NCBI GenBank assembly: GCA_905250025.1
Contig: CAJNOJ010000011.1
Span: 253,287-317,286 of the forward strand
Origin: Adineta ricciae
Lineage: Eukaryota; Rotifera; Eurotatoria; Adinetida; Adinetidae
Reading direction: 5' to 3'
Length of the DNA: 64,000 bases
The notes beneath the pieces are model-generated. The model saw only the letters and a program-made list of their open reading frames with translations. It was not told where the DNA came from and ran no database searches. Position numbers and translations under genes: made by a program. Of this stretch, positions 5,332 through 12,090 are shown in pieces (within the stretch, counting starts at the first letter, position 1; the number at the start of each line of letters is the position of its first letter).

Positions 5332-7803
5332 CTATTTCGATGTATATTTTTTATGCACCCAGTCCTTGAGTATGATTGATGCTGCATTAAATCCTGGCAT
5401 ACCCGTCACACCACCTAAAGCAATTTTAACACTACAGTGATATTCTTGTTGCTTTTATTTTATTTTCGTTTACCTCCGGGATGAGTTGAACTACCGCAGA
5501 GATAGAGTCCGTGGATAGGAGTACGGTGATTAGAACATGATATCGCCGGTCGGAACGAATAGAGTTGGTCAAGTGGAAGTGCGCCGTGAAAGATATTTCC
5601 ACCTGAAATATAAATGTTTCTGTAAAAAGTATTAATGAGGAAAGTAGTGTACCTGTTAAGGAAAATTGTTCTTCCAAGTCAGAGGGAAAGAGCATGTCAC
5701 GTCCGATAATTAGTTTTTCGAAGCCAGGTGCGTATTCTTCGATCGATTTAATCACACTTCGATAATAATTTTCCTTGTATTCATTTGTGATTTCGATATG
5801 TTTACCATTTGGTAAACGATAGGGCGTGTATTGCGTGAACAATAGAGCTACATGGCAGTTTTTTGGTGCTATAGTTGGATCGAGTGATGAAGGAATAACC
5901 TATAACAGAACATGAATAAATTAAACTTCAATCGGTTAGTTACGAACCATTTCAATTAATGGATTTTGACTTGGTTTTCCACCCAATGCTTCTTGATAGG
6001 CCGTCTGCAGGCCAGCTATCGATTCGCTGTTCATATGTATCGTGCATTGATGATGAGGTTCAAGTTCATTAGGTTTTCTATTCGGATCTGCTAGGAAATT
6101 TCTGAAAAACAATGGACACGATTATTTGGAACGTGTTAGTCGTTAGACTTTTACGGTAATCCGGATAATGCTAGATTGATTTTCGTCGTTCCACTAGTAT
6201 AATCCATTTGTGAGACATGTTGCTTCAGGTGACTTAATTCTTCGTTTGATTTCATGATATCATCAGAAATTAAGTTTTGAAATGTGATATAAGCCGTAGC
6301 ATTGGAAGCAACGAGTTTGCCTTTGATTTCTTCTCCATTGTCGAGAACGACACCTTCGACTTTCGAATTACGTACATCGATGTGTTTTACACTACAATTC
6401 GTTCGAATTTCTACACCAGCTGAACGAGCCGAGGAAGCTATAGCATTACTTATGCCACCCATGCCACCTTGAACATAATACCATGCGTCTAGGAATCGAT
6501 TTAGAATTTATCAGTTGTTTTTAAAGTTTGTTATGTCTTTCATGAAATGGCATGTTATACCTTAGTTAATCTTTGAGAAAAAACACGGCCTAATTTGTCT
6601 AAGCAACGATGAACTGTTCGAGAAAAATTTCCCGTGGGAAATAATCATATCTTTCTACTTCTAGTGTCTATATACGACCTTAAAAGTAAATTTGATTGTT
6701 TGGGTGTATATTTCTTTTTTTTCTTTCTTTCTTTTTGGTAATATGATCTTGTTACCAGAAAAATGTCTTTTTTCGATCATGTAAATCGTGACAATACAGT
6801 CGAATCAGAACGCCTACACGTTCCCATATTGCAGATGAAAATCCTTTTGTTCAAACTCAATACTCTTCAGCACACTCAGAAAGATACCAAATGCACTATG
6901 CACTGACTACTGCCTGATACTACATTGTAAGTAGGTCGCCTGCGAACAAATCTTATCTAGCTTTTCATACGCTTCACACTTTTGTAATAACAGAAGAGGA
7001 AAAAACAGTATAGCAGTTATCTTTTCTACCCATTCTAAATACATTATCTACTTACTAGCCTGCCCATCTAAACCGCCCATGACATGGTGAAGTAGGATAT
7101 AGCCCGTTCCTCGATCATATGGTCCCAGCATAGCACCAATGAGACCATCTGTAGCTAAAGTTGCTTTGATAACATCAGATTCGAACCATTGGTCTAATAT
7201 TCGAGTTGCCGATGAAGTTAATAGTTGATAGAGATCGGTGGAGCCTTTAAAACCGAGTTTGTTGAATGTTCTGTAAAAGAGTTTCGTTGTATATACGTAA
7301 GCTTGAAGGCGATTAGCGCGTTTGCTATTTTTACTCATTTGAGCGAGATCAGGTGGAGGCGAATGAATAAGTTCGTCAATATCTCGACAGATTTTCAGTA
7401 ACCATTCTTCGTATTTGTTAAAATTTTCTGCGTCTCGCTTGGAAAACTTGGCGATTTGTTTCAAATTGAATTGATTATCTGATGAGGATAATAACAACGA
7501 ACGTTGATCATGACTAACAGGATGTTTGATGGGTGTATAAGAACTCGGATCGCGAAAATAATATTTCAATCCGTGCTCGCGTAGATTTAAATCATCAATG
7601 ATTTTTGGACGAAATAAACTTAATAAATACGACGCACGAGAGAATTTGAAATCTTTTATAATCTCTTCTGTACATGCAGCACCACCAATAACCGGACGCT
7701 TTTCACAGACAAGAACCCGTAAACCTTGCCGAGCTAAATATGCCGAAGTCACTAAACCATTATGTCCAGCACCTACGATAATCGCATCGTAAGCTTTCTT
7801 CAT
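5332..7803 (-). CDS. PYROXD2: PYROXD2-like FAD-dependent oxidoreductase
   Basis: Six exons (7803-7056, 6488-6155, 6101-5948, 5899-5653, 5602-5474, 5414-5332) join in frame to 564 aa; human PYROXD2 is 581 aa. It is a phytoene-desaturase/amine-oxidase-fold flavoprotein, mitochondrial in animals, with an unsettled substrate. The N-terminus carries the dinucleotide-binding Rossmann motif DAIIVGAGHNGL (GxGxxG) and the following E of CEKRPVIGGAA. Further family blocks are YYVQGGMGGISNAIASS, NLALSGLP and the C-terminal FAD-contact block YLCGSSTHPGGGVTGMPG. Introns 2-5 are about 45-55 bp, but intron 1 (7055-6489) is 567 bp and includes a TTTC-rich tract. The start is the ATG just before the nucleotide-binding strand. 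Confidence 0.92.
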
Positions 7804-7969: not shown

Positions 7970-10900
7970 ATGAGGAAGTGCAAGCGAGCTATACACAGAC
8001 ATTTCGGCGGCGTTGGCAACTTTTTTGCCATGTTGATTCTAGTAGCCATTTCAGTACTTTTTATTAATACATATGTTCTAACAAAACGGGATGGTGAGTT
8101 GTTACATGGAAACGAAGTTTTGCTTGTCAATGACTCTTTGTAGACTCGGATGAAATATCCAATGAGCGTTCAAATCGTGTAGTATTAGTCTACAGTCATA
8201 ATCAAACAATAAAACCTTCAAAAAACGAACCTATTGAACCACAACGAATCACAAGACCAGCAGTACCTGATGTTGGTATGTAGATAGTACATTGTGTACT
8301 TTCTGAAACGAGACACTTCACTTTCTTTCCTAGGATGTGAAATTGATGAAAAATGTTCAGATGATTCTATTCCATATAAGGTGGTTTCAGGTGATGGAAT
8401 AGACAAGTATCCCGTCATATGTTTTAACAATAAATTGTATGTATTTCATTGAGAATGATTGCATTGCACTGAAGGTTTTGTTCCACAGATTAGTGCACAA
8501 GAATTTGAAAGATTCAAAAGTTGGCCGAGGAGTTAATTTAGTTGCATTCGATGGGAAAACGTTTGAATTGAAACTCACCGAAACCTTTGACACGTATATT
8601 GAAGGTAAATGATATGATTTTTGTTCATTGAAAGCAATGCTTTTCTACGATTTAGAAACATTCTTTCTTCGGACGTTGAAATTGAATTTAAACGATGGCG
8701 ATATTGTTATTCTAAGCAGTTTCGATGAAATGACATATGGGTAAGGAATAAAAACCAAAAGAGAAGGTTTTCTTATGCTGATATTCTAGATTGAAAGAAG
8801 CGTCATTGTCAATATTAGAGAAATATGGCAGTCAATTGATCAAAGTGATTAAATTTCGAGATTCATTCGTTATGATCGGACAAAAAGGTTTAGCACGTGG
8901 AAAAGCGATCGAGACGGTACAAAATGAAGTGTAATTCTTCTTCATACATATCGTTGTTTTTAGCATCAACCAAAAGGTAATCGCGATTTTGCTCCAGCTG
9001 CGCATATAAGTGGTTGTGCGAAATTTCCCTGTACGTGCTTCACTCTCTCTCTCTATCTTCTTTCGAAAGTCAATTCTTTCACGATTTCTAGTGGGTCAAC
9101 TTACGCCACTCTCGTTTCCAACGGCAGATGTGAAAAAGGAAGGAAATATTGTTACAGGTACACCAATCAAAAACTGTGGTTTGCCAGAAATGTGCAAAGA
9201 AAATGAATTTCCCGTACATGTTTACACTGGCAAAGACAAGGATGATGAACCAAAAATATGTGTCGATGGAAAATATGTCATGGCAAAAGGAATCAACGAT
9301 GCTGGACGTGGTATCAATATCGTTGTCGTTTCCAATGGGAAAGAAGTGATTCGTACAGGACATTTCGATACATGGCAAGAAGGTTAATTGGAAAATGATT
9401 TCTTCCTCGAATTTCACGAGAATTTGTCATTTAGATAGTACAAATTTAGAGATCTTTCTGGAAAATCTTGAAGATAATGTGATCCTTATCGCTGTTACAT
9501 TCGATGAGGCATCGACAAAGTAAGTTCGATGTATAAATTCTTTCATAGCATGTTTCACAATTTGATCCTATTGTCTGTACATGTATATCTATCTATATAT
9601 TTATTTAGCTTACGAAATTTTACGCGAACTATTTTACAAGGCATTGGAAGTCAGAAAATAAATTCACTTAATTTTCGTGATTCGTGGACGCTCATTCATC
9701 ATTTCAAAACGAGCATCAATTTTAATTTCGAAGAGGTGATCATTTTGAGTAACACATGCATATTAAACTATTATTAATTATAACGAGAATGAGTGAACAG
9801 AAACTCCCAATTTTCCCATCGACATTTTTCAGCTCTTTCCATTTCACTTGTCTTTCTATTTATGTATTTAGGCTTAGTCAGCACAGTAGAAATCTCTTTT
9901 TTGATCTTGGCAGTGGAACTATTCAAAATTTAAAATATCGTGACGTTTGGGCGCTCGTGGGTCAAAAGGGCATCAAAGGTTTCAGCCCGTACGAAGAGGT
10001 TTGTCTTTCATTGAGCTTATAAATGACTGTTGTGCGAACAAACAACTACGAATACATACGCTTTTGTTGTAACAAGTGTTTTACTTTAACCCATATCGTT
10101 TTCTAGACACCTTCGTAGGTAATTTCGGGTGACGTGCGAGGCTTTTTTCTCGATTACTATAGGGAAATGGGATTCTGCTCACTCATTCATTCGTAATTTA
10201 TATGCATGTGATGTTGTAAATATGTTTTCGTACTTATCTGATACTAATTTTTAACGCGTAAATGTATGTGTGTTTAGATCTCATATGCAGGCAGTGGAAA
10301 TATATATGCAACTCCTATAGACAAACGAATGTGTGTCCCGCAGACATGTAAGTGGAAATTGGGAGGTGTTTTCTGAATGGTATCTGTAGCGATGATCTGT
10401 TTCTAGTGAAAGGTGTCAAAGTTCGTCCGGATCCATTACCATTTCGTAATGATAAGCGTCGCGATTTCTGTTCACGTTACGATGGTTACGGAGATTTTTG
10501 CAGTGGTAAGTCTGGTTATTTTCGAAACACACGATCGATCGCAGTTTTTTTTATATAGATGCCAATGTTGACAAGAGTTTAGCAAGTGTTCCATTATTAA
10601 ATAAGACTCTTGAAGATAATGCAATCTATTCAACACCAATTCTTGTCATAGCTGGTATGTTTTCTATTCATTTGATGGTAATTGTCTTGACTACTTTGGA
10701 GAATTGTAGGAATATCGCATAATTCTCTTCGAATGTGCTTGGAAACTTTACTAATGCAGCCGGGCATTGTTGTTGAAAATGTTATGGTAACCGATGGAAG
10801 TTAATTGAAATCAATTTAGACTTGAATATTTGTTTCACAGGTTGCTGTCGATGAGAAATTCTCAGAATCATTGGCGTTGATTGATTTGTTTGGTTTTCAT

Positions 10901-12090
10901 GGCGAGAAAACTACGAGTAGTTCGACCTATATGGGTAAGTTGAAGGCAACGAATGCGAATATGTATTTGAGCGAGTGAATGACGATCTTTTTTAGAACAT
11001 TATGAAAAATCGTTGAGCAAAATTTGGGAACGGCATCCGACTAGAGTAAGCGAAAGAAAGATTTACTGCTTCTTTCTACGAAGTAACTCTCGTTTTATAG
11101 GACAAAGTGATTGTTATCGAAGAAGATTTGATTTTATCACCAGATTTTCTCTATACATTGGCATTATTAAGTGAAACATTTCGAAAAGACGAAAGTATTG
11201 GAGCCATACAAATGTGGAATCCTAACTGTACGACAAAACATTATTGACGCTTGATTTCACATGATTTTCTGTTTAGCTTATGACATTGTCAACGGTTCAC
11301 TTGAACTAATCTATCGAGTTGATAATCTGTATGGTTTAGGATATCTTTTACGACGGTCATTTTACGAAAAAAATATGAAGAATTCGTTTAAACAGTGTTG
11401 CTCGAAACGGTAAGCTATTCGAAGGGCAATGTTAAATTGAGAAATGTCAATATCTTTGTTATTTGTAGAGTTTGGGATAAATGGACATTCGCAGATTCTT
11501 CGTCGTCATTTCTCATGCCAGATATTTCACGCGTATTTCGCCGACCTATCGATGGAAATCGGGTAAACACAAAATATTTGGAAGTATTGTTCAATCAAAA
11601 ACGAAAGACAAGTTTGTAAGTATCAATCAGATAATTTACACATCAACACCTTTCGCTTCTGCTCTCTCTCTTAGAAATCCATTTCCAGCTTTTTCCAATA
11701 TTGACACGCTTCGTAAAGATACATACGATGCATATTTAACGAAAACTATTCGTTCAGCTACATTGCTTAAATCGTTACAACAGTGTGATACACTCAATTT
11801 GGACATGTTCAATATAATCAGAAATCAAAATACGTAAGAAATTCGATTTGTAATGAGAAGAACTTCTATTCGTTTTCTTGTTTAGATCCGATACGTTCAA
11901 ATATATTTACGAACAACAGTCTGAGAATGATATAAACAAACTTCAGCCTGTTCTTCCTTGTTTTGGATTATTTTCACTTGAACCGCTCGGTCTTTACCAT
12001 GGCATTCTTCGATTCAGTTCCAATAAGTACAATTTCTTTCTCATTGGAACAAAATCACCTCTATATTCAAGTATTTCAACGACTGTCTAA
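7970..12090 (+). CDS. POMGNT1: POMGNT1-like O-mannose beta-1,2-GlcNAc transferase with two ILEI stem domains
   Basis: A type II Golgi enzyme in the O-mannosyl glycan pathway (dystroglycan in vertebrates). About 20 short-intron exons were traced. ATG 7970 gives a signal anchor (residues about 19-38, LILVAISVLFIN). Stem module 1 (about 8490-8935) has GRGVNLVAFDG and FRDSFVMIGQKG. Module 2 (about 9290-10340) has GRGINIVVV and YRDVWALVGQKG. These are ILEI/FAM3-type folds; human POMGNT1 has one. The GT13 catalytic part follows: VIVIEEDLILSPDF (metal-binding EED), GLGYLLRRSFY, VWDKWTF with the catalytic-base region, and MPDISRVF. Module 2 contains two alternative versions of one exon (9609-9735 and 9872-9998). 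The C-terminus (FGLFSLEPLG...) is unlike the human one. Family call is secure; the exact substrate is inferred. Confidence 0.85.
9609..9735 (+). other. Alternative exon A of the POMGNT1-like gene
   Basis: 127-nt exon flanked by AG and GT, phase 2 at its start and phase 0 at its end. It encodes LRNFTRTILQGIGS...NFRDSWTLIHHF...NFEE. It has the same length and phases as exon B, so only one of the two can be used in an in-frame mRNA. The position that is VGQKG in exon B and in module 1 is IHHFK here. Confidence 0.75.
9872..9998 (+). other. Alternative exon B of the POMGNT1-like gene
   Basis: 127-nt exon, phase 2 in and phase 0 out, encoding LSQHSRNLFFDLGS...KYRDVWALVGQKG...PYEE. It aligns without gaps to exon A (shared L, R, GS, RD, W, L, EE) and keeps the canonical ILEI motif, so it is probably the ancestral version. 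Confidence 0.75.

Follow-up and report, generated by a model that had tools for sequence, protein, structure and literature searches.

Exons A and B of a POMGNT1-like gene in the 64,000-nucleotide stretch of Adineta ricciae DNA analysed here (the window) probably form a mutually exclusive pair that originated when an ILEI exon was duplicated, with B as the default exon and the use of A helped by an RNA helix. The pair had already been proposed in a first-pass annotation of this DNA; new here are a 127-nt exon of the first ILEI module (module 1) in the same phases, a duplicate gene without A, and a pairing between flanking introns. The features concerned are:

7970..12090, + strand: POMGNT1-like gene, modelled by hand from GT-AG sites and reading frame
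8790..8916, + strand: 127-nt exon of module 1, a homologue of A and B in identical phases
9435..9519, + strand: constitutive 85-nt exon 5' of the pair, which holds the Asp aligned with D179 of POMGnT1
9609..9735, + strand: exon A, alternative, with FRDSW retained and the GxKG motif gone
9736..9871, + strand: A-B intron (136 nt) and left stem arm, with its core at 9753-9763 and 9787-9802
9872..9998, + strand: exon B, canonical, with YRDVW and VGQKG
10103..10244, + strand: right stem arm, within the intron that follows B, with its core at 10173-10188 and 10200-10210
10278..10347, + strand: constitutive exon 3' of the pair

The gene product begins with a short part that includes a hydrophobic stretch, continues with two ILEI modules in tandem and has a GNT-I catalytic domain. 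Pfam ILEI and GNT-I are both matched within the one chain, as expected of a POMGNT1 member, and a 553-residue query that runs from module 2 through the C-terminus aligns over residues 9-547 with human POMGNT1 (5ggf, E 2.6e-54), which bears out the earlier placement of the pair in a POMGNT1-like stem. The catalytic domain retains its acidic EED motif, and by homology the product is a POMGNT1 homologue with a predicted O-mannose beta-1,2-GlcNAc transferase activity. Both ILEI modules are cut alike, into an 85-nt exon and then a 127-nt exon; the 127-nt exon of module 1 together with its downstream exon reaches 25.2 bits against Pfam ILEI, slightly under the cut-off of 27. An adjoining gene on the minus strand (window 5500-7803) has an N-terminal GAGHNGL motif, and we take it to resemble an FAD-dependent oxidoreductase.

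The first-pass description of the two exons holds in its particulars: equal length and phase, ungapped homology within an ILEI module, loss of frame when both or neither is used, and VGQKG in B as against IHHFK in A. Each exon is 127 nt long, enters in phase 2 and leaves in phase 0, is directly preceded by TTTAG and directly followed by GT, and thus has GT-AG borders. Either exon alone continues the frame into the exon at 10278, whereas A together with B runs into a stop in codon 2 of B (EEA*), and omission of both leads to a stop at the 14th codon past the junction codon. Aligned without gaps, A and B are identical at 12/42 residues and 55/127 bases, and both isoforms match Pfam ILEI: the full module scores 77.3 bits with B and 71.8 bits with A (curated cut-off 27), the latter score taking in the first half of the module, which is common to both isoforms. 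With the downstream exon only, B scores 27.7 bits and A 20.8 bits (E 5.5e-4), so that A falls below the cut-off. The exon of the duplicate gene that corresponds to B is identical to it at 37/42 residues, and both retain GQKGI where A reads HHFKT. A and B are therefore neighbouring internal exons, equal in length and phase, homologous, open, bordered by GT-AG and frame-breaking when jointly used or jointly skipped, as is characteristic of mutually exclusive exons.

The differences between A and B are distributed as expected of a conserved protein segment. Identities at codon positions 1, 2 and 3 number 20, 22 and 13 of 42, respectively, compared with about 11-12 per position in codon shuffles; the observed value for positions 1 and 2 together is reached by 0/20000 shuffles, whereas position 3 is at chance level (p 0.42). 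Thus, silent sites appear saturated while the protein has been conserved. Simulated neutral drift of B to the A/B identity gave a mean family score of -34 (sd 12), compared with 46 for A, and 0/3000 simulations reached A, as was the case (0/3000 each) for seven other drift settings with other identities or with the B exon of the duplicate as ancestor; the family used for these scores is a small set of four FAM3/POMGNT1 segments and two module-1 exons. An open frame in A would arise by chance in 3.5% of base shuffles and in about 6% of drift simulations at the A/B identity. As judged from these simulations, A is not a drifting relic, and the constraint at the protein level is strong. The first 27 residues of A score 52.0 against the family, compared with 47.2 for B, whereas the last 15 residues score -6.0 and 26.8, respectively, and the loss is confined to this part (permutation p 0.003). 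The absence of the GxKG motif from A, and its sub-cut-off Pfam score when joined to the downstream exon only, count against the pair.

Among the best candidates scored, one other copy of the gene was found, at 272.6-276.2 kb of contig C37. Within the window, 62 of the 433 open stretches (at least 50 residues, both strands, antisense shadows included) match ten stretches from C37:225-326 kb, with their order mostly preserved, indicating that this region is a segmental duplicate. Window positions 1-44000 and C37:258-314 kb form a largely collinear block, consistent with an ancient genome duplication; Adineta ricciae is described as having old duplicated blocks and a GC content of 35.6% (PMC5916493), and the GC content of the window is 34-38%. 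A telomere-repeat pattern, used as a check of lineage, was matched in frequency by its reversed control and so carried no information. The tandem ILEI modules ahead of a POMGNT1-type catalytic domain (window 8334-10347) are present in both gene copies. The EED motif reads EEN in the C37 duplicate (L024:5200-5259), and the activity of this copy may therefore have been changed or lost.

In the C37 copy the sole exon at this place is of the B type, and its adjoining introns of 52 and 51 nt leave no room for A. This counts against the pair, since just one of the two gene copies in the genome has A. Comparison of the copies implies that A was either lost from the C37 copy or gained in the window gene. 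Silent identity is 13/42 between A and B and 17/42 between B and its C37 counterpart, sites too few to order the events. In a tree of nine exon segments (42 columns), none of the groupings A with B and C37-B (p 0.43), A with module 1 (p 0.42) or A with B (p 0.19) is rejected, so that the sequence does not settle whether A derives from B or from the module-1 exon. When the A protein was searched against the same genome it matched only itself, in a search that is weak because it also missed B. A search for related loci among genome contigs and viral contigs yielded none.

The introns at the pair are unusually long. They measure 89 nt (before A), 136 nt (between A and B, 9736-9871) and 279 nt (after B, 9999-10277), compared with 47-61 nt for the remaining 37 introns counted in both copies (18 in the window gene and 19 in the C37 gene). 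The median intron of the window gene is 54.5 nt; PMC5916493 gives a median of 55 nt for Adineta ricciae, the table column being assigned via the mean of 104 bp in the text, and describes long introns in bdelloids as a minority class. Simple steric exclusion is unlikely, as the 136 nt that separate A from B far exceed the length of the other introns. Six-frame translations inspected by eye revealed no third exon in the 279-nt intron, and this intron matched only itself in a search of the genome that ignored very common words. The top-scoring acceptor-like site listed in the A/B region lies at 10106 within this intron (score 10.3), where TAG and GT follow (window 10103-10120).

The acceptors of A and B are ordinary, ranking 14 and 23 of 35. 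The donor of A (GAG/GTGATC) scores 0.6, lower than all 35 training donors, which counts against the pair, compared with 4.9 for B and 0.8 for the donor at the same place in the C37 copy. The other open, frame-keeping GTs there (L024 4261-4387) would shorten the C37 exon to 73 or 79 nt, and its weak donor is therefore probably used. A low score thus does not rule out use of the donor of A. These features could also be those of a recently dead exon, one that was long an alternative to B and has yet to accrue stops, with only B being spliced now. The weakest donor of the set, the lost GxKG region and a duplicate without A would all fit such a history, which we nevertheless consider unlikely, given that A is open over its full 127 nt, with an intact acceptor and a GT donor, and that its divergence lies in the last third alone and not all along the exon.

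Alternatively, A could act as a poison exon, whose inclusion with B lowers the enzyme level through the immediate stop at the second codon of B, and whose own protein sequence has no role. Such an exon would have no need of conserved ILEI residues, yet the family-level constraint on A exceeded that of all simulations (0/3000), making this explanation highly improbable. We regard it as very unlikely that A is an alternative last exon, read through at its weak donor into a short tail of 13 codons and a stop to give a tandem-ILEI protein without a catalytic domain, since the ATTAAA at 9762 that might serve it precedes the stop, since chance alone would place 0.26 copies of AATAAA or ATTAAA in every 136 nt of the window, and since donor position, exon length and phase of A all match those of B.

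The mutually exclusive pair proposed in the first-pass annotation remains the best reading because of the strong constraint on A and because only mRNAs with one of the two exons keep the frame, while the absence of A from the C37 duplicate weighs against it. According to this reading, A and B would descend from a duplicated exon that encoded the second half of an ILEI (FAM3-type) module, and only mRNAs with exactly one of them would encode the full enzyme, whereas mRNAs with both or neither would meet an early stop and presumably be removed by nonsense-mediated decay. Exon B is the probable default, since it has the better splice sites and is the sole version in the duplicate gene. We suggest that a long helix, formed by the A-B intron with the intron downstream of B, could loop out B and bring the weak donor of A close to the downstream acceptor, such that formation of the helix would favor A.

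The best computed duplex between the 136-nt and the 279-nt introns, the latter via 10103-10244, comprises 88 pairs, with core helices between 9753-9763 and 10200-10210 (11/11) and between 9787-9802 and 10173-10188 (15/16). The duplex of 9736-9871 with 9999-10277 has an energy of -75.4 kcal/mol, and 0/500 dinucleotide shuffles are as strong. Within the window, this energy is reached by 3/1039 places of the same geometry and 4/1485 random pairs. Among GC-matched pairs 1/800 reach it, and the plain alignment score of the stem is reached at 2/2490 places, both near 52 kb. Inverted complementarity near window 52026 equals the A-B stem by alignment score. The helix core is present in both minimum-energy folds, with mean base-pair probabilities of 0.95-0.99. 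The comparison covered four intron pairings, including one of an intron with itself; among the three between different introns, only that of the A-B intron with the intron downstream of B is above chance (p 0.45 and 0.13 for the others), and the first intron with itself is stronger than all 500 shuffles, an AT-rich self-pairing.

Some features of the predicted folding count against this reading. The outer ends of the duplex, at the donor of A and the acceptor of B, have pairing probabilities of 0 and 0.01, and folds of the whole region barely surpass their shuffles (z -1.83, 3/100 as good; z -1.42, 2/20). The predicted pairing does not clearly hide the splice sites of B more than those of A. 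An opposing helix that would loop out A was not found, the acceptor region of A pairing with the arm at chance (p 0.61), and hence nothing structural enforces B. The much shorter introns of the C37 copy have no similar pairing (-8.8), and Rfam gave 0 matches at the gathering score over the whole window.

The part of the module encoded by the alternative exon adjoins a known sugar-binding site. The human POMGnT1 stem binds GlcNAc via R129, D179 and R207 (PMC9802357). In the alignment to 5ggf, the whole triad is present: R129 corresponds to GRG (exon 9092-9382), D179 to FDEAS (exon 9435-9519), and R207 to the arginine of RDxW within the alternative exon, which is retained in both A (FRDSW) and B (YRDVW). 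The conversion of the 5ggf chain index to human numbering uses an inferred offset of 91 that fits all three residues. The first-pass suggestion that the isoforms would differ in stem surface, and possibly in glycan or partner binding, thus calls for some refinement: the last 15 residues of A have diverged, whereas the R207-equivalent arginine is common to both. Because of this shared arginine, A more likely tunes the surface beside the GlcNAc site than abolishes the site itself. The A isoform would keep the ILEI core and the arginine and differ in its last third, which may tune the binding of glycans or partners by the stem.

A bolder proposal, which we put forward tentatively and consider possible at best, is that splicing would edit the lectin-like stem of this O-mannose glycosyltransferase: by looping out the default exon, the helix would yield a stem that retains the GlcNAc-contact arginine but has a new rim, thereby changing the preferred glycosylation sites, and that the duplicate, which would have lost or never had the choice and reads EEN, would have divided roles with the window gene. 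The POMGnT1 stem reportedly modulates O-mannosylation sites, to judge from the title of Kuwabara 2016. If the stem here is indeed switched by splicing, it would provide a natural experiment on this modulation. The pair would also lend itself to testing how RNA structure controls the choice of exons where introns are generally very short, and how duplicated genes share out work among splice variants and gene copies.

Among the literature matches listed, there was no report of mutually exclusive exons in POMGNT1 or rotifers, and nothing relevant on bdelloid alternative splicing in the passages of one paper; the POMGNT1 splicing events in the passages of another are retained introns. The window gene resembles 5ggf across the stem and catalytic domain, with the R129, D179 and R207 positions and EED kept, and differs from POMGNT1 in having a tandem pair of ILEI modules rather than a single one, with two exon versions of the second. 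C. elegans FAMP-1 also has two FAM3-like domains that precede a POMGnT1-like C-terminal domain, which, however, is said to bear only minimal resemblance to the POMGnT1 catalytic domain (PMC9802357), whereas that of the window gene matches well and keeps EED. In the 14-3-3zeta, Mhc and MRP1 clusters, PMC6071210 places a docking site in the right intron, and the A/B pair is similar in that a long intronic duplex involving the intron 3' of both exons could loop out one of them. However, docking-site/selector systems have at least two competing selectors per docking site, whereas the A/B pair has one pairing, with no competing second selector found. As PMC5740500 cautions, there are many pairs of similar adjacent exons whose use is not mutually exclusive, which counts against the pair. 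Like the tandem-duplicated mutually exclusive exons described in PMC5740500 and PMC9741552, A and B are neighbouring internal exons of the same length and phase, are homologous, and break the frame when doubly used or skipped, and they differ in that exclusive use is here a prediction from genomic sequence. The pair thus fits a known kind of splicing, and is most likely a real mutually exclusive pair and a new case of it.
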